Assembly: GCA_004366205.1 (NCBI GenBank)
Contig: SIRW01000041.1
Coordinates: forward strand, 1 to 35,169
Direction of reading: 5' to 3'
Length of the DNA stretch: 35,169 nucleotides
Origin: Actinomycetota bacterium
GTDB taxonomy: Bacteria; Actinomycetota; Acidimicrobiia; Acidimicrobiales; CADCSY01
The notes under the pieces are model-generated. The model searched no databases and had not been told where the DNA came from. It saw only the letters and a program-made list of their open reading frames with translations. Below are positions 3,815 to 34,985 of this stretch, piece after piece (positions within the stretch are counted from its first letter, which is position 1; each line of letters begins with the position of its first letter). Made by a program: the position numbers and the translations under genes.

Positions 3815-5431
3815 TCACGCCAGGCGGCGGCGTTCGACCCAGAGGGCGAGGGCGGCGAAGGCGGAGGCGGCGGCGAGCAGCACGACGAGGGCGACGAGCG
3901 CGGGCGAGGCGAGGGGCGACCAGGCGAGGAGCGCCCGGGTGGAGTCGGCCAGGCCGGTCTCGGTGCTCCCCCACCAGCGATCCAGGGTCCACACGCCGGC
4001 CTGGAGCTGGAGGGCGCCGGCGACGCCGAGCACGGCCAGCGGCGCCCACCGCCGGTGGCGACCGAGCAGCGACACCACCCCGGCGGCGGCGACGGCGGCG
4101 ACCCCAGCGAGGCCCGGGTACGTGTAGCGACCGTGGATGCCGCGGGGCGCGCCGGTGTCGAGGTACAGGTCGAGCGCGCCATAGGCGACGACGGCGAAGA
4201 TCCCCAGGAACGGCAGGCACAGCACGGCCAGGTCTGCGCGGGTCGCCCCCGTCCGCACCACGGCGAAGGCGGCCCCGACGAGCGCCAGCAGGACGAGCGA
4301 GGCGACCACGCCGGGGGTCGTGGACCCGCCAGGCACGGTGACCGGCTCGAACCAGAACCGGGAGGCGAAGCGCTCGAGGGCGAACGGCGCCCACCACGCC
4401 AGGTCGGGCGTGAAGCCCTCGGGCACGCCCCGCTCGACGAACGGCAGTGGCTGCAGCGAGCCGTGGCGCACCAGGTTGGCGACCCACCACCACAGCCCGC
4501 CCGCCAGCATCACCCCGAGGGCCGCCCCACCCCGGCGGCCGAGCAGCCCCCACCCCCGACCCATCCGTTCTGGGTGGCGCTCGGTCCCGCCCGCTGGAAC
4601 CTGGCGCACCCAGAACCGGGAGAGGAGGGGGCGGCGGGCGCCGAGGAGGTAGGCGGCGGCCACGACGGGGGGCAGGGCGAGGGCGAAGCCCTTGGTGAGC
4701 AGGGCGAGGGCGCCGAGGACCCCGACGGCGACGGCGGTGCGGGCCGACAGGTCGCCCTTGGCGACGCCTGCGAGCAGCGCGGTCATGGCCGCCACGAGCA
4801 CGACGAGCAGGTTGTCGTTGTTCACCGACGAACCGATGTGGGTGAGCATCGGGACGGCGAGGGGCAGCGTGGCCGCCACGAGCGCGGCGGCCCGGTCGCC
4901 GGTCGCCCGCCACGCCGTCGCCCAGGCCAGCACCGGCAGGGGGAGCACCAGCACGGCGCTGTAGAAGCGCAGCAGCAGGACCTCGACGTCGTAGGCCATG
5001 GTGAACGGCAGGGCGTCGGCCGCGGCCAGCACGACCGCCCCGCCCAGGTAGTACAGCGGCGGGTGCTGGGTCATCTGCTGGGGGATGTCCGACGGCCGGT
5101 CCGGCCCCAGGTCGGCGAAGGTGAGCCGCTCTCCCCGGGGCGGGGCGAGCCGGCGATCGAAGGGCAAACCCGGGTCCCACGGGCGGTAGGCGACCAGCCC
5201 CCACGAGTTGGTGACCTCGACCGACAGGCGCCGCTCCCCCGGATCGGGCCAGCGCCACTCGGCCCGCACCGCCCGGGTCATGTCGACGTGGGCGGGCTCG
5301 TCCGGTGACCGGTAGGTCGGGAACAGCACCGCCTGCACGGCGAGCAGCAGCCCGAACACGGCGACGAGCGCCCACACGGCCTGCGGCGGGCGCGCGCGGG
5401 CGCCCCCGCCCGGTGGAGGCCGGGGCGTCAC
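3815..5431 (-). CDS. DUF2142-type polytopic membrane protein
   Basis: The 538-residue protein has about ten hydrophobic segments. After the first (about 19-36) come SPDEPAHVDM (42-51), QHPPLYYLGG (122-131) and GSSVNNDNLLV (200-210). These match the DUF2142 family of predicted membrane proteins, which resemble GT-C glycosyltransferases, with an acidic motif and a His-Pro-Pro loop on the outer face. The likely role is transfer of a sugar from a lipid-linked donor to an envelope acceptor (inference; the family lacks a firm biochemical assignment to my knowledge). GTG at 5431 is used as the start; the next gene upstream on the same strand ends 34 bases before it, so the two may be co-transcribed. 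Residues about 272-289, in a loop between membrane segments, are encoded by a strong inverted repeat (see 4566-4616). Confidence 0.8.
   Translation of the reverse strand: MTPRPPPGGGARARPPQAVWALVAVFGLLLAVQAVLFPTYRSPDEPAHVDMTRAVRAEWRWPDPGERRLSVEVTNSWGLVAYRPWDPGLPFDRRLAPPRGERLTFADLGPDRPSDIPQQMTQHPPLYYLGGAVVLAAADALPFTMAYDVEVLLLRFYSAVLVLPLPVLAWATAWRATGDRAAALVAATLPLAVPMLTHIGSSVNNDNLLVVLVAAMTALLAGVAKGDLSARTAVAVGVLGALALLTKGFALALPPVVAAAYLLGARRPLLSRFWVRQVPAGGTERHPERMGRGWGLLGRRGGAALGVMLAGGLWWWVANLVRHGSLQPLPFVERGVPEGFTPDLAWWAPFALERFASRFWFEPVTVPGGSTTPGVVASLVLLALVGAAFAVVRTGATRADLAVLCLPFLGIFAVVAYGALDLYLDTGAPRGIHGRYTYPGLAGVAAVAAAGVVSLLGRHRRWAPLAVLGVAGALQLQAGVWTLDRWWGSTETGLADSTRALLAWSPLASPALVALVVLLAAASAFAALALWVERRRLA
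4566..4616. repeat. 51-bp inverted repeat inside a coding region
   Basis: The left arm GTTCTGGGTGGCGC (4567-4580) pairs with GCGCACCCAGAAC (4604-4616) with one bulged base, and the stem continues through GGTCCC/GGAACC to a loop of about 7 bases. It lies within the DUF2142 gene and keeps the frame. Its size and CTGGG...CCCAG arms recall the intergenic hairpin at 3744-3793. Confidence 0.55.
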
Positions 5432-7986: not shown

Positions 7987-9045
7987 GTGGCCCCCGCTTC
8001 TGTGACCCCGCCGCCGGCTCCGGCGCGGTCGCGGTCGCGGCGGGCCGGGTGGGCGGCGGTCAAGTGGGGCTTCGCCCTGCTGGTGGTGGTGTTCCTCGTG
8101 CGGGTGGCCGCCGACAACGTCGACGCCCTGCGCGACACGTCCCTTGAGCTCCGGCCCCTGTGGCTGCTGGCCTCGGCGCCGCTGGTGGCGGGCGGCAGCC
8201 TCCTGCTGCCCCTCGCGTGGCGGCACCTCGTCGCCGCCTACGGGCCCCGGCTGCGCAAGCGCGACGCCATGCGCATCTGGTTCGTCTCGCAGGCGAGCCG
8301 CTTCATCCCCTCGGGCATGGCGACGGTCGCCTCCCGGGTGGTGCTGGCCCACCGCGAGGGGGTGCCGCGGTCGCTGGCGGGGGCGAGCGTGCTGGTCGAG
8401 GGCGGCATCATCCTCCTGCTCGGCGGGCTGGTCGCCGGCGTGTTCCTGCCCTCGAGCCTGGCGCCCGCACCGATCCGGCTGCTGCTGGTCGCCGGGTGCG
8501 CCGGCGCCCTGCTCGCCCTGCCGTGGGTGCTGGCGATCGGCGGCCGGCTGGTCTCGCGGTTGCCGGCGCTGGCGCCCGACGACCTCGACCTGCGCCAGCT
8601 CTACGAGGCGGTGGCGATCTACGCCACCAACACCGTCGCCAAGTCGCTCGGGTTCCTGTTCCTGGCGGCGTCGATCCTGCCGCTGTCGGCGACCGACGCC
8701 CCCCTCGTGATCGGCGCCATCAACGGCGCCGTGGTGATCGGCATGCTGGGCATCACCCCGGGCGGGCTGGGCGTGCGCGAGGGCGTGCTCGCCGCCCTGC
8801 TCGCCCACCGCTTCAGCCTGGGCGACGCCGCCGCCTTCGCCGTGGCCATGCGGGCCTGGGACTTCGCGTTCGAGCTGATCTGGCTGTCGGCCGCCGCCGT
8901 GGCCGGCCGCCGCCGTGACCGCGAGCGCGAGGACGCTCTCGCCGCCGGCGCCGGCGCCGGCGCCGGTCCGCCGCACCCCGACGCCGCACTTTCCGGACCC
9001 CGAACGTCGCCATCCGGCCTCGAGCGTCCGGAAAGCGCCGGGTGA
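7987..9045 (+). CDS. Flippase-like membrane protein (LPG synthase TM / UPF0104 family)
   Basis: The protein has 352 residues from GTG 7987; an in-frame GTG at 7963 is the alternative. There are seven to eight membrane segments. It has the family signatures FVSQASRFIPSGMATVASRVVLAHREG in the first half and the glycine-rich ITPGGLGVREGVLAALL in the second half. This is the membrane domain known from MprF and from AglD-like proteins, thought to flip or handle lipid-linked substrates. No catalytic aminoacyl-transferase domain is attached, so lipid or lipid-linked sugar transport is more likely than lysyl-PG synthesis (inference). The C-terminus is a cytoplasmic tail with a GCCGGC microsatellite encoding AGAGAGAG. 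A paralogue is at 13944-14915. GACACT 8 bases before the GTG suggests a leaderless start. Confidence 0.85.
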   Translation: MAPASVTPPPAPARSRSRRAGWAAVKWGFALLVVVFLVRVAADNVDALRDTSLELRPLWLLASAPLVAGGSLLLPLAWRHLVAAYGPRLRKRDAMRIWFVSQASRFIPSGMATVASRVVLAHREGVPRSLAGASVLVEGGIILLLGGLVAGVFLPSSLAPAPIRLLLVAGCAGALLALPWVLAIGGRLVSRLPALAPDDLDLRQLYEAVAIYATNTVAKSLGFLFLAASILPLSATDAPLVIGAINGAVVIGMLGITPGGLGVREGVLAALLAHRFSLGDAAAFAVAMRAWDFAFELIWLSAAAVAGRRRDREREDALAAGAGAGAGPPHPDAALSGPRTSPSGLERPESAG

Positions 9046-9058
9046 CGGGTGAGCGGCG

Positions 9059-10222
9059 TCAGCCGGACCAGGAGGCGGCCCGGCGGTAGGCGGCGAGGTG
9101 CGCGTCGACCACGGTCGCCGGGTCGTGGCGGGCGAGGGCCTCGGCGACCGGGGGCGGCAGCGGCAGGCGGCGCAGGGCCTCGGCGAGCGCGCCGGGGTCG
9201 GCGGGCGGGACGAGGATGCCGTCGGCCTCGTGGCGCACGGCCTCGGGCAGTCCCCCCACGGCGCTGGCCACCACGGGCCGGCCGACGGCGAGGGCCTCGA
9301 GGGCGACCAGGCCGAGCCCCTCCCGCAGGCTCGGCACCACCAGGGCGTGCGCGTCGCCCAGCCGCTCGATGACCTCGTGGTGCGGGCGGGCCCGCAGCAG
9401 GCGCACCCGCCCCTCCACGCCCACGACCCGGGCGGCGAGCCGCTCGAGGTCCGGCCCGTCGCCGATGATGTCGAGCTGCACGTCAACGCCGTCGGCGAGC
9501 AGCCGCTCCACGGCGTCGACGAGCACGTCGAAGCCCTTCTCGGGCACCAGCCGGCCCACGGCGAGGATCCGCAGCGGCGGGGGCGGGGGCGGCGGGGCGA
9601 CCTCCTGGCGGGGGATGCGCAGCGGCATGCGCAGCACGGCGAGGTCGCCGGCCGCGACGCCGAGCTGCGCCGCCGAATCGGCGCGCAGCGCCTCGGACAC
9701 GGCGCCGACCACGGCGGCCTCGCCGACCACCCAGCGGGCGAGGCGCCGCAACGCCCGGCCCCGGGCCAGCACCAGGTCGGTGCCGTGGAGCGTGACCACC
9801 AGCGGGATGTCGAGCCGCCGGCCCACGAGCGCCCCGGCGACGCCGGCGGGCACCCACCAGTGGGCGTGGATCACGTCGGGCCGGAACCGCCGGGCCTCCA
9901 GCCAGGCGGCGCGCAGGAAGGCGGCGAGGAACGGCGGCACCAGCGCAGCGCCCGCGGGCCGCCGCATGTTGGCGGCGATCCCCCCCCGGTGGGCCAGCAC
10001 CTCGAGCGACGGAGGGGCGTACCGGAAGCGCCGGACGTGGGCGCCGCCCAGGTGCTCGCGCCGCGCCGCGCCGGCGTCGTGGGGCGCCACCACGGCGTTC
10101 TCCACGCCGGCGCCGGCCAGGTGGGTGGTGAGGTCGAAGATGAACTGGCCCGACGGGTCGCCCTCCCGGCGGGGGAACGACGTCGTGAGGTGCAGCACCC
10201 GCAGGCGGCGTCCCCGGCTCAT
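9059..10222 (-). CDS. Glycosyltransferase family 4 (GT-B fold, group 1)
   Basis: The product is 387 residues from ATG 10222. The N-terminal Rossmann half begins VLHLTTSFPRREGDPSGQF, where GxF binds the acceptor side. The linker carries HAHWWVPAG and VTLHGTDLV. The C-terminal half has VGRLVPEKGFDVLVDAV and the E-x7-E nucleotide-sugar motif in REGLGLVALEALAVGRPVV. It is a retaining cytoplasmic glycosyltransferase that adds a sugar from a nucleotide donor to a growing lipid-linked glycan; donor and acceptor are not predictable. The open frame continues upstream of 10222 but only through the 29-bp tandem repeats, so that extension is rejected. It converges on the flippase-like gene, ending 13 bases away, and is divergent from the GT2 gene. 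Confidence 0.9.
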   Translation of the reverse strand: MSRGRRLRVLHLTTSFPRREGDPSGQFIFDLTTHLAGAGVENAVVAPHDAGAARREHLGGAHVRRFRYAPPSLEVLAHRGGIAANMRRPAGAALVPPFLAAFLRAAWLEARRFRPDVIHAHWWVPAGVAGALVGRRLDIPLVVTLHGTDLVLARGRALRRLARWVVGEAAVVGAVSEALRADSAAQLGVAAGDLAVLRMPLRIPRQEVAPPPPPPPLRILAVGRLVPEKGFDVLVDAVERLLADGVDVQLDIIGDGPDLERLAARVVGVEGRVRLLRARPHHEVIERLGDAHALVVPSLREGLGLVALEALAVGRPVVASAVGGLPEAVRHEADGILVPPADPGALAEALRRLPLPPPVAEALARHDPATVVDAHLAAYRRAASWSG

Positions 10223-23267: not shown

Positions 23268-24569
23268 ATGCAACGGAGCGTGAGGAGAGTTGCGAGCCCC
23301 CCCGATGCGCCCCGGTCCCCCCTGCGGCCCGCCCGTCGCCTGCTGGCCGCCGCCCTGCTGGTCGCCGTCGCCGTCGCCGGCCTGCCCAGCCCCGCCGGCG
23401 CGTCGAGCCTGCCGCAGCCGGCGACGGCCGAGGTCGAGTTCCTCCGGCTGACGAACCAGGCCCGCGCCGGCGCCGGCCTGGCGCCGCTCACCCGGGACAG
23501 CGCCGCCGACGCCGTCGCCCGCGAGTGGTCGGGGGTCATGGCCCGGGAGGGCCGCCTCTACCATCGCCCCGACCTGGGCACCGCCATCACGACGCGGATC
23601 ACGCCCACGTGGACCCGCGGGGGCGAGAACGTCGGGGTCGGTGGCAGCGTGCCCTCCCTGCACGACGCCTTCATGGGCTCCCCCGGGCACCGGGCCAACA
23701 AGCTCGGGGACTTCAACCGGGTGGGGGTCGGCGTGGTCACCGACGGCAGCCGCATCTGGGTGACCTACGTGTTCGTCAAGGGCCCGGCGATCACCGGCGA
23801 CACCGGCACGGAGAGGCCGGTCAACGGCGCCATGTGGCTGGCGTCGACCGACGGCGGCGTGTTCGCCGTGAACGCGCCGTTCTTCGGGTCGCTGGGCGGC
23901 GTGCGCCTCGCCCAGCCCGTCGTCGGCATGGCCCCGACGCCCTCGGCCAAGGGCTACTGGCTGGTCGCCCGCGACGGGGGCATCTTCACCTTCGGCGACG
24001 CCCGCTTCTTCGGCTCCACCGGCGCCATGCGGCTCAACCAGCCGGTCGTCGGCATGGCCGCCACCCCCACCGGCAACGGCTACTGGCTGGTCGCCCGCGA
24101 CGGCGGCATCTTCACCTTCGGCGACGCCCGCTTCCGGGGCTCGACCGGCAACCTGCGGCTGAACCAGCCCATCCTGGGCATGGCCCCGACGCGCAGCGGC
24201 AACGGCTACTGGCTGTTCGCGAGCGACGGGGGCATCTTCACCTTCGGCGACGCCCGCTTCCACGGCTCGACCGGCAACCTGCGCCTGGTGCAGCCGATCG
24301 TCGGCATGACGCCGACGCCGACGGGCCGCGGCTACTGGATGGTCGCCCGCGACGGCGGCATCTTCACCTTCGGCGACGCCCGCTTCCTGGGCTCGCTCGG
24401 GGGCCGGGCGCTGCCGGCGCCGATCGTCGGGATGAGCGCCACGGCCACCGGCAACGGCTACCGCCTCGTCGACGCCGACGGCCGCGTCTACAGCTTCGGC
24501 GACGCCGGCTCGGGCAACAGCGGCCGGCTGGCCAACGGCGCTCCGGTCGTCGCCGCCGCCGGCATCTAG
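23268..24569 (+). CDS. Secreted CAP (SCP/PR-1-like) domain protein with 42-residue repeat tail
   Basis: The product is 433 residues from ATG 23268; GTG 23280 in frame is possible. A signal peptide (hydrophobic 24-39, cleavage after PAGAS) leads to a CAP domain (about 53-171) with LTNQARAGAGLAPL, RLYHRPDL, GGENVGVG, SPGHRANKL and GVGVVTDGSRIWVTYVFV. From about 184 to the end there are six units of 42 residues, typified by QPVVGMAATPTGNGYWLVAR plus DGGIFTFGDARFxGSTG; the first and last are diverged. The middle units are nearly identical, also in DNA (126-bp period), which suggests recent expansion or gene conversion. Similar GYW/FGDA repeats are common in Acidimicrobiia and may fold as a beta propeller (inference). 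An extracellular enzyme or adhesin is likely. Confidence 0.88.
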   Translation: MQRSVRRVASPPDAPRSPLRPARRLLAAALLVAVAVAGLPSPAGASSLPQPATAEVEFLRLTNQARAGAGLAPLTRDSAADAVAREWSGVMAREGRLYHRPDLGTAITTRITPTWTRGGENVGVGGSVPSLHDAFMGSPGHRANKLGDFNRVGVGVVTDGSRIWVTYVFVKGPAITGDTGTERPVNGAMWLASTDGGVFAVNAPFFGSLGGVRLAQPVVGMAPTPSAKGYWLVARDGGIFTFGDARFFGSTGAMRLNQPVVGMAATPTGNGYWLVARDGGIFTFGDARFRGSTGNLRLNQPILGMAPTRSGNGYWLFASDGGIFTFGDARFHGSTGNLRLVQPIVGMTPTPTGRGYWMVARDGGIFTFGDARFLGSLGGRALPAPIVGMSATATGNGYRLVDADGRVYSFGDAGSGNSGRLANGAPVVAAAGI

Positions 24570-28481: not shown

Positions 28482-30206
28482 GTGCACCCAGCACCATCCC
28501 CCGCAGGCCGGCGCGCGCCCGCGCTCGCCCGGCTCCTCGCCCTGCTCGCCACGATCGCCCTGGTGGCGGTGGCGTGCGGCAACGGCGCCGACGACGGCGT
28601 CGCCGACATCGACCGGCCCGGCACCGGGCCCGTCCGCGACGGCGGCGACCCGGTCTACGGCGGCACCATCACCGTCGGCCTCGAGGCCGAGACCAACTCG
28701 TTCCTGCCCGGCGAGGCGTCCCTCGCCATCTCGGGCAGCACGATCGCCCACGCCATCTACGACCCGCTCGTCATCCTCGACGGCGAGGGCGAGATCCGGC
28801 CCTACCTCGCCGAGTCGATCGAGCCCAACGACGAGCTCGACCGGTGGACGGTGCGCCTCCGCGACGGGGTCACCTTCCACGACGGCACGCCGCTCACCGC
28901 CCAGGTCCAGGCCGAGGCGTTCGACGAGTACCTCTTCGTCGAGGGCTCGAACGTGCAGGGCACCCTGCTCACCAACGGCGTCACCGGGGTCGAGGTGATC
29001 GACGAGCTGACCTACACCTACGTGCTCTCCGGGCCCAACGCCGCGTTCCCCGACATCCTGCGGGGCATCATCGGCATGCCGTTCTCGGTCGAGGCCGCCC
29101 GCGCCGCCGGGGACGACGCCGGCGCCAACCCGGTCGGCACCGGCCCGTTCGCCTTCGAGAGCTGGCAGCGCGACAGCCAGCTCGTCGTCGTCCGCAACGA
29201 GGACTACTGGCGCTCCGACGAGAGCGGCAACCCGCTGCCGTACCTCGACAGCGTCGTGTTCCGCCCGATCCCCGACGAAGAGACCCGGCTGGCCGCCCTG
29301 GCCACCGGCGACGTCGACGTCATGCACTCGCTGCGGGGCAGCTTCATCAAGCAGGTCGAGGAGATGGCCGAGGCCGGGGGCTACGTGTCGTACCTCATGA
29401 CCAGCAACGAAGCCGGCGTGTCGATCATGAACACGACGGTGCCGCCCGTGGACGACCGCCGCATCCGGCTGGCCATGGCATGGGCCGGCGACCACGAGTC
29501 GGTCGCCCGGGTGCTGGGCGACGACGGGCTCGTGCCCGAGACGACGCAGTGGTTCAGCCCCGACAGCCCCTGGTACTCCGAGCGGGTCGCCGAGGCCTAC
29601 CCCGGCTACCCCGAGCGCGACGTCGAACGGGCCCGCGAGCTCGTCGAGGACTACGTGAACGACCCGGACCGCTCCGATGGGCGGCCCGCCGGCTCGCCGG
29701 TCGAGATCGAGTACAACTGCCCGCCCGACCCGAGCCTCATCGAGGTCGCCCAGCTGGTGCAGGCCCTGTGGGGCGAGGCCGGGATCGAGGTGCGCCTGAA
29801 CCAGGTGGAGCAGGCCGCCCACATCCAGAACGCCATCGCCGGTGACTACATGGTCAACTGCTGGCGCCAGAGCGGCGAGAGCGATCCGTTCACGTTGCTG
29901 AACGGCGCCCACGGCGCCGTCGACAACCCCACGAACTTCACCAACTTCGTGCACCCCGACATCGACGAGGCGCTCGAGGTGCTGCGGACCAGCGCCGACT
30001 TCGACGAGCGCTTCGCGGCTGTGGAGCAGATCCACATGGTGCTCAACGAGGAGATGCCCTACACGTGGGGCGTGGGTACGCCCACGACGGTCGGCGCCCA
30101 CGACCGCGTCCGCAACCTGGCCGGCTGGACCTTCCCCGACGGCACGCTCGGTCGGGGCACACCCCAGGGCCTGATCCGGGTCGTGGAGGCCTGGCTGGAC
30201 CGGTAG
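28482..30206 (+). CDS. ABC transporter substrate-binding lipoprotein, family 5 (copy 1)
   Basis: The product is 574 residues from GTG 28482, about 8 bases after GGAGA. The signal segment ARLLALLATIALVAVAC gives a lipoprotein-type cysteine near residue 33. The mature protein begins after a Gly/Asp-rich linker with GDPVYGGTITVGLEAETNSF. Family 5 (DppA/OppA-like) hallmarks are WTVRLRDGVTFHDGTPLTA, YVLSGPNAAFPDILRG, NPVGTGPFAFESWQRDSQLV and RNEDYWR. Two cysteines, in NCPPDPSLIEVAQLVQ and NCWRQSGESDP, are conserved in all three copies and may form a disulfide. Ligands of the family are peptides, nickel, sugars or other small solutes; which one is not predictable here. No permease or ATPase gene is near. 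Confidence 0.9.
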   Translation: MHPAPSPAGRRAPALARLLALLATIALVAVACGNGADDGVADIDRPGTGPVRDGGDPVYGGTITVGLEAETNSFLPGEASLAISGSTIAHAIYDPLVILDGEGEIRPYLAESIEPNDELDRWTVRLRDGVTFHDGTPLTAQVQAEAFDEYLFVEGSNVQGTLLTNGVTGVEVIDELTYTYVLSGPNAAFPDILRGIIGMPFSVEAARAAGDDAGANPVGTGPFAFESWQRDSQLVVVRNEDYWRSDESGNPLPYLDSVVFRPIPDEETRLAALATGDVDVMHSLRGSFIKQVEEMAEAGGYVSYLMTSNEAGVSIMNTTVPPVDDRRIRLAMAWAGDHESVARVLGDDGLVPETTQWFSPDSPWYSERVAEAYPGYPERDVERARELVEDYVNDPDRSDGRPAGSPVEIEYNCPPDPSLIEVAQLVQALWGEAGIEVRLNQVEQAAHIQNAIAGDYMVNCWRQSGESDPFTLLNGAHGAVDNPTNFTNFVHPDIDEALEVLRTSADFDERFAAVEQIHMVLNEEMPYTWGVGTPTTVGAHDRVRNLAGWTFPDGTLGRGTPQGLIRVVEAWLDR

Positions 30207-30218
30207 CGCCACGACGGC

Positions 30219-30239
30219 GTGACGTCCGTCACGTACGCT
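30219..30239 (+). promoter_or_regulatory. Palindromic operator and -10 box of substrate-binding gene 2
   Basis: GTGACGTCCGTCAC (30219-30232; two 6-base arms with a 2-base centre) is followed after one base by TACGCT (30234-30239). The palindrome therefore fills the -35/-10 spacer, where a bound repressor would block RNA polymerase. The same arrangement occurs at 32070-32090. Confidence 0.65.
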
Positions 30240-30257
30240 TCGGGTGCAGCGATGCAC

Positions 30258-30272
30258 GCCGCGTGAAGCGGC
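30258..30272 (+). promoter_or_regulatory. Leader hairpin of substrate-binding gene 2
   Basis: GCCGC and GCGGC pair around GTGAA in the predicted 5' leader, about 20 bases before GGGGGAGAGACC and the start codon. A four-codon frame (ATG at 30252, TGA at 30264-30266) runs into the hairpin. A matching hairpin occurs before copy 3. Confidence 0.4.
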
Positions 30273-30291
30273 CAGACAAGGGGGAGAGACC

Positions 30292-32007
30292 GTGGCACAT
30301 CGGACACCCTCGGCAGGGCGCGCGGGCACCATCTGGTTCCGGCTGATCGCCCTGCTCGCCGTCATCGGCCTGGTGGCCGCCGCGTGCGGTCGCGACGAGG
30401 AGGCCGCCGAAGAGGAACGGCCCGGCGGGGGCCCGGTCGTCGAGGAGGGCGACCCCGTCTACGGCGGCACGATCACCGTCGGCCTCGAGGCCGAGACCAA
30501 CTCGTTCCTGCCCGGCACCGGCGCCTTCGCCATCTCGGGCGCCACGATCGCCCATGCCATCTACGACCCGCTCGTCATCCTCACCGACGACGGCGAGTTC
30601 AGCCCCTACCTGGCGGAGTCGATCGAGCACAACGACGACGTCACCGAGTGGACCGTGCGGCTGCGGCCCGGCGTGCAGTTCCACGACGGCACCGACCTCA
30701 CCGCCCAGGTCATGAAGGAGATCTTCGACGAGTACCTGTTCGTCGACGGCGCCAACACCCAGGGCGCGCTGGTCGCCGCCGGCGTGACCGAGATGCGGGT
30801 GGACGACGAGCGCACCTTCACCTACGTGCTCTCGGCCCCCAACGCCGCGTTCCCCGACAACCTGCGGGGCGCCATCGGCTGGCCGTTCTCGGTCGAGGCC
30901 GCCCGGGCCGCCGGTGACGACGCCGGGTCCCGACCGGTCGGGACCGGGCCGTTCGCGTTCGAGAGCTGGGAGCGCGACAGCCAGCTCGTCGTGGTGCGCA
31001 ACGAGAACTACTGGCGCTCCGACGAGGACGGCAACCAGCTGCCGTACCTCGACCGCATCGTGTTCCGGCCGATCCCCGACGAGGAGTCGCGCGTGGCGGC
31101 GCTGGCGACGGGCGACGTCGACGTGATGCACACCCTGCGGGGCAGCCACGTCAAGCAGGTCAACGCCATGGCCGAGGAGGGTGGCTACAACTCCTACATG
31201 ATGACGGGCAACGAGTCCGGCGCCACGATCTGGAACACCGAGCGCCCGCCCGTGGACGACAAGCGCATCCGCCAGGCCATGGCCTGGGCCGGTGACCACG
31301 AGGCGGTCGCCCGCGTGCTGGGCGACGACGGCCTGGTCGAGGCGACGACGCAGTGGTTCGCGCCCAACAGCCCGTGGTACTCGGAGCGCACGGCCGAGAG
31401 CTACCCCGGCTACCCCGAGCGCGACGTGGAGCGGGCGCGCCAGCTCGTCGACGAGTACCGCAACGACCCGAACCGCTCCGACGGCCAGCCGCCGGGCTCC
31501 CCGGTGCGGATCCAGTGGAACTGCCCGCCTGACCCGAGCCTCATCGAGGTGGGCCAGCTCGTGCAGCAGCTCTGGGGCGAGGCCGGCCTCGAGATCCAGC
31601 TCAACCAGGTCGAGCAGGCAGCCCACATCCAGAACGCGTTCGCCGGCGACTTCGAGGGCAACTGCTGGCGCCAGAGCGGCGACAGCGACCCCTACACGAT
31701 GCTCAGCAACGCCCACGGCGAGGGGAACCCGCTCAACTTCACCCGGTTCACCCACCCGACGATCACCGAGCAGCTCGAGGTCCTGCGCACCAGCACCGAC
31801 TTCGACACCCGCTACGCGGCGGTCGAGGCGATCCACGAGGTGCTCAACGACGAGATGCCCTACACCTGGGGCGTCGGCACGGTCACGACCGTCGGGGCCC
31901 GCGAGCAGGTGCGCAACATCGCCGGCTGGACGCTCCCCGACGGCAAGCTCGGCCGGGGCACGCCCGGCGGGCTGATCCGCCTGGTCGAGGCCTGGGTCGA
32001 GCGGTAG
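30292..32007 (+). CDS. ABC transporter substrate-binding lipoprotein, family 5 (copy 2)
   Basis: The product is 571 residues from GTG 30292, chosen because GGGGGAGAGA precedes it at proper distance; the frame is open 48 bases further up but inside the leader. The signal RLIALLAVIGLVAAAC leads to the lipid-anchored cysteine near residue 30. The fold and motifs follow copy 1: GDPVYGGTITVGLEAETNSF, WTVRLRPGVQFHDGTDLTA, RPVGTGPFAFESWERDSQLV, RNENYWRSDEDGNQLPYLDR, NCPPDPSLIEVGQLVQQLW and NCWRQSGDSDPYT. It is closest to copy 3, with which it also shares promoter, leader hairpin and ribosome binding site, so the whole transcription unit was duplicated. The substrate is unknown; the binding pocket loops differ most among the copies. 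Confidence 0.9.
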   Translation: MAHRTPSAGRAGTIWFRLIALLAVIGLVAAACGRDEEAAEEERPGGGPVVEEGDPVYGGTITVGLEAETNSFLPGTGAFAISGATIAHAIYDPLVILTDDGEFSPYLAESIEHNDDVTEWTVRLRPGVQFHDGTDLTAQVMKEIFDEYLFVDGANTQGALVAAGVTEMRVDDERTFTYVLSAPNAAFPDNLRGAIGWPFSVEAARAAGDDAGSRPVGTGPFAFESWERDSQLVVVRNENYWRSDEDGNQLPYLDRIVFRPIPDEESRVAALATGDVDVMHTLRGSHVKQVNAMAEEGGYNSYMMTGNESGATIWNTERPPVDDKRIRQAMAWAGDHEAVARVLGDDGLVEATTQWFAPNSPWYSERTAESYPGYPERDVERARQLVDEYRNDPNRSDGQPPGSPVRIQWNCPPDPSLIEVGQLVQQLWGEAGLEIQLNQVEQAAHIQNAFAGDFEGNCWRQSGDSDPYTMLSNAHGEGNPLNFTRFTHPTITEQLEVLRTSTDFDTRYAAVEAIHEVLNDEMPYTWGVGTVTTVGAREQVRNIAGWTLPDGKLGRGTPGGLIRLVEAWVER

Positions 32008-32056
32008 CCGTCACGCCGTCACCCGCTTCGGCCGTCGGTGACAGGGCCATCAGTGG

Positions 32057-32090
32057 GTGACGCCACAGGGTGACGATCGTCACCTACGCT
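32057..32090 (+). promoter_or_regulatory. Palindromic operator, extra half-site and -10 box of substrate-binding gene 3
   Basis: A perfect 14-bp palindrome GTGACGATCGTCAC (32070-32083) is followed after one base by TACGCT (32085-32090), the same geometry as before copy 2. An additional GTGACG lies at 32057-32062, and GTCAC/GTGAC pairs at 32018-32042 add further half-sites, so this promoter has up to five of them within about 70 bases. Confidence 0.68.
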
Positions 32091-32111
32091 GCGTGCCTTC
32101 GTGCACGCGAT

Positions 32112-32124
32112 GCCGCGACGCGGC
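32112..32124 (+). promoter_or_regulatory. Leader hairpin of substrate-binding gene 3
   Basis: GCCGC and GCGGC pair around GAC, followed by CTGACAGGGGGGAGAGA and the TTG start, closely matching the leader of copy 2. A short frame from ATG 32110 (MPRRGLTGGRDP) ends at TGA 32146-32148, overlapping the TTG start. Confidence 0.4.
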
Positions 32125-32144
32125 CTGACAGGGGGGAGAGACCC

Positions 32145-33866
32145 TTGACCTACCGGACACGCTCAGTGGGGGGCGCTGGCACCAGCGTGTGGCTCCGGCT
32201 GATCGCACTGCTCGCCGTCATCGGCCTCGTGGCCGCGGCGTGCGGCGACGACGGCACGGCGACCGACGACGAACGACCGGGAGGCGGCCCGGTGGTGGAC
32301 GAGGGGGATCCGGTCTACGGCGGGTCGGTCACCGTCGGGCTCGAGGCCGAGAGCAACTCGTTCCTGCCCGGCGAGTCGGCGCTCGGCATCGCCGGCACGA
32401 CCATCGCCCACCACATCTACGACCCGCTGATCATCCTCAACGAGGACGGCGAGAACATCCCGTACCTGGCCGAGTCGCTCGAGGCCAACGACGACGTCAC
32501 CGAGTGGACCGTGCGGCTGCGGCCCGGTGTGCAGTTCCATGACGGCACGCCCCTCAACGCCCAGGCGCTCAAGGACGCCTTCGACGAGTACCTGTTCGTC
32601 GAGGGCTCCAACACCCAGGGCCCGCTGATGACCGCCGGCGTGACCGGCATGCGCGTCGACGACGAGCTCACCGTCACCTACGAGCTCTCGTCGGCCAACG
32701 CCGCCTTCCCCGACCTCTTGCGGGGCTCGGTCGGCTGGCCGTTCTCGGTCGAGGCCGCCCGGGCGGCCGGGCCCGACGCCGGCGCGCGCCCGGTCGGCAC
32801 GGGGCCGTTCGTGTTCGACAGCTGGGAGCGCGACAGCCAGCTCGTCGTGGTGCGCAACGAGAACTACTGGCGCTCCGACGACAACGGCAACCAGCTGCCC
32901 TACCTCGACCGCATCGTGTTCCGCCCGATCCCCGACGAGGAGACCCGGGTGGCGGCCCTCGCCACCGGCGACGTGGACATCATGCACACCCTGCGGGGCA
33001 GCCACATCAAGCAGGTCATCGCCATGGAGGAGGAGGGCGGCTACGTCCAGTACCTGATGACCGGCAACGAGTCGGGCGTGTCGATCATCAACACCACCGT
33101 CCCGCCCCTCGACGACCGCCGGATCCGCCAGGCGATGGGCTACGCCGGTGACTCCGAGGCCGTGGCCCGGGTGCTCGGCGACGACGGCCTGGTCGACAAC
33201 ACCACCCAGTGGTTCAGCTCGGACAGCCCGTGGTGGTCCCAGCGGGTGGCCGAGGGCTACCCCGGCGGGCTCGAGCGGGACGTCGAGCGGGCCCGTGAGC
33301 TCGTCCAGGAGTACGTGAACGACCCGAACCGCTCCGACGGCCAGCCCGTGGGCACGCCGCCGCGGTTCACCTACAACTGCCCGCCGGACCCGAGCCTCAT
33401 CGAGGTCGCCCAGCTGGTGCAGCAGCTGTGGGGCGAAGCCGGCATCGAGGTCGAGCTGAACCAGCTCGAGCAGGCCGCCCACATCCAGGTGGCCCTGGCC
33501 GGCGACTACGAGGTCAACTGCTGGCGCCAGGGCGGCGACTCGGACCCCTACACGGTGCTGAGCAACGCCCACGGCTCGCTCGACAACCCGCTCAACTTCA
33601 CGAACTTCGTGCATCCGGGGATCGACGAGCAGCTCGAGATCCTGCGGACCAGCACCGACTTCGACACGCGCTACGACGCCGTCGAGCAGATCCACCTGAT
33701 CCTCAACGAGGAGATGCCCTACACCTGGGGCGTGGGCACCGCCACCACGGTCGGCGCCCGTGAGCAGGTGCGCAACATCGCGGGCTGGACCCTGCCCGAC
33801 GGCTCGCTCGGCCGGGGCACACCCAACGGCTTGATCCGTCTCGTCGAGGCCTGGCTCGACAGTTAG
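32145..33866 (+). CDS. ABC transporter substrate-binding lipoprotein, family 5 (copy 3)
   Basis: The product is 573 residues from a TTG at 32145. This unusual start is chosen because the preceding GGGGGGAGAGACCC aligns with the ribosome binding site and GTG of copy 2 and the N-termini then match (TYRTRSVGGAG against AHRTPSAGRAG). The signal RLIALLAVIGLVAAAC is identical to copy 2. Motifs: GDPVYGGSVTVGLEAESNSF, WTVRLRPGVQFHDGTPLNA, RPVGTGPFVFDSWERDSQLV, NCPPDPSLIEVAQLVQQLW and NCWRQGGDSDPYT. The rare TTG codon may lower translation relative to the other copies. The protein would be anchored outside the membrane and bind an oligopeptide-like or other solute. A strong bidirectional terminator follows. 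Confidence 0.88.
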   Translation: MTYRTRSVGGAGTSVWLRLIALLAVIGLVAAACGDDGTATDDERPGGGPVVDEGDPVYGGSVTVGLEAESNSFLPGESALGIAGTTIAHHIYDPLIILNEDGENIPYLAESLEANDDVTEWTVRLRPGVQFHDGTPLNAQALKDAFDEYLFVEGSNTQGPLMTAGVTGMRVDDELTVTYELSSANAAFPDLLRGSVGWPFSVEAARAAGPDAGARPVGTGPFVFDSWERDSQLVVVRNENYWRSDDNGNQLPYLDRIVFRPIPDEETRVAALATGDVDIMHTLRGSHIKQVIAMEEEGGYVQYLMTGNESGVSIINTTVPPLDDRRIRQAMGYAGDSEAVARVLGDDGLVDNTTQWFSSDSPWWSQRVAEGYPGGLERDVERARELVQEYVNDPNRSDGQPVGTPPRFTYNCPPDPSLIEVAQLVQQLWGEAGIEVELNQLEQAAHIQVALAGDYEVNCWRQGGDSDPYTVLSNAHGSLDNPLNFTNFVHPGIDEQLEILRTSTDFDTRYDAVEQIHLILNEEMPYTWGVGTATTVGAREQVRNIAGWTLPDGSLGRGTPNGLIRLVEAWLDS

Positions 33867-34609: not shown

Positions 34610-34626
34610 CCTCCCGGTCGCGACAA

Positions 34627-34757
34627 CTTCCCCCCTCGCCCCCCGACCCCCTCGCCCCCCCGACCCCCGCTCCCCCGCACCCCCCGACCCCCGCTCCCCC
34701 TCGCTGTCGAACCTCTCCCCCTCGCTGCCGAACCTCTCCCCACGCCCACCCCCATGC
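34627..34757. other. C-rich tract (G-rich on the minus strand)
   Basis: Over about 130 bases the plus strand is mostly runs of 4-7 C with CG, CT or GA interruptions, including repeats of CCCCCGACCCCCGCTCCC type and two copies of TCGAACCTCTCCCC-like sequence (34705-34740). The minus strand thus has many G-runs able to form quadruplexes. No coding frame here is credible. Confidence 0.7.
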
Positions 34758-34870
34758 GCGCGTTTTATCGATTCACACACCGAATCGCCCGCCGAATCGG
34801 TGACCGAATCGCCCGCCGAATCGGTGACCGAATCGCCCGCCGAATCGAACACAGAATCGATAAAACGCGC
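34758..34870. repeat. Inverted-repeat-bounded array of GAATCG at 12-bp period
   Basis: The perfect 17-bp arms GCGCGTTTTATCGATTC (34758-34774) and its complement (34854-34870) bound the element. GAATCG begins at 34782, 34794, 34806, 34818, 34830, 34842 and 34854, exactly 12 bases apart; the last copy is part of the right arm. Spacers alternate CCCGCC and GTGACC, then AACACA. An opposite-facing CGATTC ends the left arm. The AT-rich arms stand out from the surrounding GC content. Function is unknown: an iteron-type protein binding array, replication or partition site, recombination site, or long RNA hairpin are possible. Confidence 0.92.
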
Positions 34871-34985
34871 CGCTGTGCAGGTGGGTGCGCGGGTGTGGGC
34901 GGGGCGGTGTGGGGGCGGGGCGGTGTTGGGGCGGGGCGGGTGCGTGGAGGGGGGCAGGGCGGGCGGACTGCTGGCGGGTGGGTGA
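34871..34985. other. G-rich tract on the plus strand
   Basis: This is the mirror of the C-rich tract: many runs of 3-6 G (GGGCGGGGCGG types) follow the array. Together the two tracts could pair as a long imperfect stem or form quadruplexes on opposite strands. Confidence 0.65.

Follow-up and report, generated by a model that had tools for sequence, protein, structure and literature searches.

What kind of sequence closes a strictly phased array of short palindromic units with a perfect inverted repeat, and is it a binding site, a transcribed hairpin, a product of slippage or a sequence that moves? The question is raised by a 113-bp element (measured arm to arm) at positions 34758-34870 of a 35,169-nucleotide stretch of actinobacterial DNA, here called the window, which is an entire contig (C38) of a draft genome of 3.44 Mb in 119 contigs. 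In this element a perfect 17-bp inverted repeat encloses 12-bp-phased units of the CGAWTCR type. We searched the whole genome for further copies by BLASTN and with patterns, and the copy count given below comes from these searches and not from the ~1.87 Mb of the genome that was read base by base.

Architecture and setting of the element

The left arm, GCGCGTTTTATCGATTC (34758-34774, plus strand), is the same in six of the eight two-armed copies found in the genome, and the other two carry GAATC in place of GATTC. The right arm, GAATCGATAAAACGCGC (34854-34870, plus strand), is its exact reverse complement, which bears out the perfect inverted repeat of the preliminary description. The array, CGAWTCRNNNNN (34769-34864, plus strand), comprises eight phased 12-bp units, the first reading CGATTC and the last entering the right arm. 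GAATCG starts at 34782, 34794, 34806, 34818, 34830, 34842 and 34854, that is, in 12-base steps, and the spacers alternate between CCCGCC and GTGACC, followed by AACACA. The exact period and the alternating spacers reported earlier thus hold, but the count of seven units does not: the CGATTC at 34769, within the left arm, shares the phase of GAATCG, from which only the central base of the palindrome CGAWTCG sets it apart, and the units therefore number eight.

The element lies 300 bp from the contig end and, as described before, between divergent genes, flanked by a minus-strand open reading frame (ORF; start ~34482) and by a plus-strand ORF that continues beyond the end of the window. The first 20 residues of the latter resemble MetH in our judgement, and a search of same-family genomes with the ORF neighbouring the element gave no match. 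On either side of the arms run short tandem repeats, C-rich on the left (34622-34757, plus strand; 60-nt GC skew -0.63) and G-rich on the right (34871-34985, plus strand; +0.62), both with approximate outer limits. Each of the eight two-armed copies is bordered by C-rich sequence on its 5' side and G-rich sequence on its 3' side, with a right-flank 60-nt skew of +0.39 to +0.62 (baseline standard deviation 0.15) that decays over 60-100 bp, and partial copies mostly lack this skew. The innermost flank bases share a consensus, CCCG on the left and CCGGGG on the right, and the longer flanks differ. With such C- and G-rich flanks, the outer boundaries of the element are fuzzy. We rejected two further ideas about these flanks: they do not form an extended sequence-specific palindrome, since each pairs no better with its own partner than with the flank of another copy, and the C-to-G skew switch, which appeared unique to the element in 110 kb, occurs 24 times in 1.87 Mb, with three of the switches at arrays.

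As RNA, the element is predicted to fold far better than dinucleotide shuffles on both strands (z = -7.3 and -6.2), which supports its potential for a long-stem hairpin. Its T-run does not follow the 3' arm, as it would in an intrinsic terminator, but belongs to the 5' side of the stem. Because of this, and because copies also occur inside genes, a plain terminator fails as an explanation, as had been anticipated.

Copies and array composition in the genome

Fourteen copies are found on 11 contigs. Eight are two-armed (C38, the window copy; C63; C108; C52:11.9k; C98; C50; C51:13.9k; C52:24.7k), and six are one-armed or armless (C93:20.6k, C93:25.3k, C51:2.9k, C76, C34 and C7). Genome-wide, the 30-base pattern GAATCGN6GAATCGN6GAATCG has 48 occurrences and the reversed control pattern none, which makes the phased array non-random and supports the earlier view of a real element. 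Searching the genome for the arm with up to three mismatches gave 20 matches, every one of them in an array.

The 14 copies supply 102 units, all with the same bases at unit positions 3, 5 and 6. Position 4 can be either A or T and position 7 either A or G, and the spacers vary. The centre is thus the variable one among the inner heptamer positions, which would fit heptamers that pair with each other and is equally compatible with a palindromic protein site. Unit number differs among arrays, and spacers are homogenised within each array, with a likeness of 0.64 within arrays versus 0.59 between arrays (permutation p<=0.0005). Such slippage-like behaviour is confined to the internal array.

Copies between and within genes

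Five or six copies are intergenic: the window copy lies between divergent ORFs, and those of C108, C52:11.9k, C98 and C50 lie between co-directional genes. About half of the 14 copies are inside reading frames and in frame, as judged from open frames, codon composition, homologues and Pfam. Three of these are two-armed, including the C63 copy inside ImuB, the C52:24.7k copy inside an AftD-like arabinofuranosyltransferase, and the C51:13.9k copy, across which the frame stays open from LipB into LipA. Partial copies lie in frame in the linker of an ECF sigma factor, between Sigma70_r2 (14-81) and r4_2 (130-181), in a loop of FabH, in the linker of a lipoprotein, at the C-terminus of an alpha/beta hydrolase and in a dioxygenase-like ORF; another occupies the segment directly upstream of the start of a gene that we judge to be ThpR-like. 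We take the lipoprotein to be thioredoxin-like, although the fragment tested gave no Pfam match, and the dioxygenase-like ORF to be related to homogentisate dioxygenase, although it matched neither Pfam nor PDB.

The host genes have unrelated functions. The insert peptides vary with frame and strand and are of the ESPT/ESVT, RIGD or DSVG type, representing three different frames, and therefore the conserved hexamer is a property of the DNA or RNA and not of a conserved peptide.

Empty sites and distribution among relatives

Comparison between genera reveals empty sites in three host proteins. Relatives of AftD align to query residues 20-131 and 215-489, several of them with 0-7 residues between the two parts versus ~80 here, and the alignment suggests that the G-rich right flank is part of this insert. 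ImuB relatives lack the insert ARFIDSPTES...ESIKRA in the linker preceding PWPGRLP, and FabH carries 15 inserted residues when compared with its best PDB match, a solved FabH.

The element itself was not found in 11 same-family genomes, nor in 59 relatives, which gave weak unrelated matches only. Among 298 genomes of the order, no array match has the arms. Matches in G026, G050, G073, G126, G158 and G197 proved on inspection to be different sequences. In G050, an order-level relative, CGATTCG and CGAATCG pairs cluster at two loci (L020 and L022) with ~11-bp spacing and no arms, possibly as an unrelated repeat family. One arm plus two units was found in one of 395 genomes of the class, the host genome itself, and in none of the 394 others. 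The right-arm pattern had no match in the genome_contigs and viral_contigs collections, from which the host's own or a very near genome may have been left out. Four phased CGAWTC units occur in at least 113 stretches of genome_contigs, with arms in none of the 80 inspected among the matches listed, and our literature search found no paper that describes this repeat.

Given its absence from the relatives and from the order and other class genomes searched, we regard the family as lineage-specific at the available resolution and, as far as these sequence comparisons reach, so far seen in one bacterium. The preliminary description had linked absence from relatives to a recent slippage product without function. 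The searches bear out the absence, but the conclusion does not follow, since copies with the same arms are dispersed at unrelated loci and the element is thus not a one-off slippage product.

Other repeats in the genome

The same genome carries further palindrome families. One has a fixed length of 45 bp, TTTCCGGACC-N25-GGTCCGGAAA, with 41 copies in ~1.9 Mb (up to two mismatches per arm) and almost none at other gap lengths; its copies often stand two or three in tandem at ~72-83 bp (among others at window 8990-9034, L245:283-491, L266:11054-11242 and L281:19755-19887). Another has a fixed length of 52 bp, CGTTCTGG-N36-CCAGAACG, with inner parts like GGTCTCACC and GTGAGACC and 34 copies in ~1.9 Mb (window 4566-4617; L228:13867 and 13961; L321:8854-9091; L239:119). 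This family is REP-like, yet the genome is without RAYT, and in a same-family relative (L063) these ends enclose a different middle part in a palindrome that is likewise 52 bp long. In addition, 51-bp palindromes with CGTTCT...AGAACG ends (CGTTCTGTGAGG... and CGTTCTCGAGGCC...) at L240:8435-8485 and 9437-9487 and at L215:8558-8608 possibly form one superfamily. The window also holds ~4.8 tandem copies of a 126-bp unit (23912-24510) and three consecutive, mutually similar ORFs (28482-33866), presumably peptide ABC transporter substrate-binding lipoproteins.

A probable mobile element and its alternatives

Taken together, these results suggest that the repeat is probably a MITE-like palindromic mobile element that is non-autonomous and lineage-specific, with a behaviour closest to that of the Rickettsia palindromic elements (RPEs). 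This reading is based on its dispersal, its near-constant arms, its in-frame residence in unrelated genes and the empty sites in relatives, features by which reviews of RPE, ERIC and Correia elements characterise such small elements (PMC2229807, PMC10969869). The element thus resembles a "selfish" sequence that moves more than a switch for local regulation. It would have spread by folding back on itself, with some enzyme acting on the folded form in trans. Its inner array consists of self-complementary CGAWTCG heptamers at 12 bp. Since each of these can pair with every other one once the strand is folded, the array could lengthen or shorten in 12-bp steps, through slippage or recombination, while the hairpin is retained. 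A unit of 12 bp is four codons long and most frames contain no stop, so that a copy landing in a gene could persist as an insert of the ESPT, RIGD or DSVG type in a linker, a loop or a terminus, and the one-armed or armless copies in genes may be trimmed survivors.

As to how it moves, the longest direct repeats in the flanks are 7.25 bp versus 7.8 bp in cross-pairs, given uncertain element boundaries, which reveals no target-site duplication. The draft genome holds no autonomous element or insertion sequence (IS) with matching arms. Mobilisation by a RAYT/Y1 (HUH) transposase was rejected, since a PF01797 search of the genome gave no match (5 of 14 control genomes were positive). With no transposase sharing the ends, no RAYT and no target-site duplication found, the mechanism of mobility is one that we infer. 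Tentatively, and with more doubt than for mobility itself, the repeat could be a foldback element of a new type, with an expandable self-complementary 12-bp array and an enzyme unlike those of REPs or IS-derived MITEs. If so, free change of length with hairpin and reading frame kept would let such an element colonise protein genes. FabH, the sigma factor, ImuB and AftD are natural test cases of tolerance to inserts, and the question becomes which enzyme moves the element.

Phased repeats also bring to mind an iteron or operator, in which CGAWTCG palindromes spaced at 12 bp would be bound by a protein with a role in regulating adjacent genes or in chromosome organisation, with the in-gene copies serving as sites too. 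Invariant CGAWTC at a 12-bp phase with a free spacer is what a dimeric DNA-binding protein would select, and five or six copies are intergenic, but we consider this unlikely, as the host genes are unrelated, about half of the copies lie within coding sequences, among them those of FabH and the sigma factor, and terminal arms and copy-specific homogenisation of spacers would be superfluous for a binding site. Moreover, the 14 loci are unrelated and are neither an origin nor neighbours of a rep gene, and GANTC occurs in the rest of the genome about as often as expected. With so many copies in frame, the iteron suggested in the preliminary description is not supported as the main function; a role as iteron or terminator is unlikely to be the primary one, although intergenic copies may have such a role. 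GANTC methylation by a CcrM-like system was likewise rejected: 115 sites are observed versus 116.8 expected under a maximum-order Markov model, the depletion under a first-order model being misleading, and this balance gives no sign of such a system. Intergenic persistence could also reflect a transcribed hairpin that serves as a site of mRNA processing, stability or termination, as in ERIC or NEMIS. The very stable predicted fold on both strands and the several copies between co-directional genes agree with this, but it too has a low probability, because no base-pair covariation speaks for a selected RNA fold, the arms being invariant and the spacers not seen by inspection to covary (a check raised by the preliminary description), copies also lie inside genes and between divergent genes, and the window has no Rfam family match.

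An artefact of assembly or binning in a metagenome-type draft, through repeat collapse or chimeric contigs, might be suspected from the 119 contigs and from the position of the window copy near a contig end. We hold it to be very improbable, since copies lie deep inside most of the 11 contigs amid ordinary conserved genes, with spacers that differ per copy, and host proteins with in-frame inserts align with relatives on both sides. Pure slippage, with separate origins of the 12-bp tandem repeats at many loci and arms that are alike by coincidence, would account for the variable unit number and internal homogenisation, but it is hardly credible given the same hexamer, phase and 17-bp arms at eight unrelated loci and a control pattern count of zero; the arms shared among loci contradict it.

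Comparison with known repeat systems

The mobile element proposed here shares features with several described repeats. In-frame invasion of conserved proteins by palindromic repeats is best known from Rickettsia. The TAACTGA direct repeats of Beggiatoaceae and Cyanobacteria are dispersed sets of a conserved heptamer (PMC4679880) but, unlike the present arrays, are contiguous, have no arms or palindrome, and lie mostly directly upstream of start codons. REP/RAYT systems have dispersed palindromes in common with the present family, whereas the present genome has no Y1 transposase (PF01797). The Caulobacter CcrM-associated intergenic repeats (CIR) are likewise ~110-bp inverted-repeat elements with GANTC sites (PMC2229807), but they do not occur inside genes and have stops in all six frames, in contrast to a family with in-gene copies in a genome where GANTC is not specially distributed.

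As in MITEs, the element is small, has no transposase gene, carries terminal inverted repeats and occurs in multiple dispersed copies with empty sites between genera. Bacterial MITEs with ORFs (ERIC/RU-1, Correia/NEMIS, YPAL) are small dispersed foldback repeats, some fused in frame to genes, and most described bacterial MITE families also lack an end match to an autonomous IS (PMC2229807). Compared with these, the present element has no TA termini or target-site duplication that we could see, no IS with matching ends in its genome, and an internal tandem array.

In behaviour, the closest likeness is to RPEs, which are ~100-150 bp long with terminal inverted repeats and occur between genes as well as in frame in unrelated conserved protein genes (PMC2229807, PMC10969869). 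By description, both share size, palindromy, terminal inverted repeats and residence in both settings, including palindromic copies in frame in unrelated protein genes. In contrast to RPEs, the present element has an expandable 12-bp heptamer array and C- and G-rich flanks, and its 14 copies belong to one lineage, in a very GC-rich, non-rickettsial host. Since the host is not a Rickettsia, we do not classify the element as an RPE. An independent case in so distant and GC-rich a bacterium, built so as to tolerate changes of length, would suggest that such elements can supply proteins with low-complexity linkers and that they arise repeatedly.
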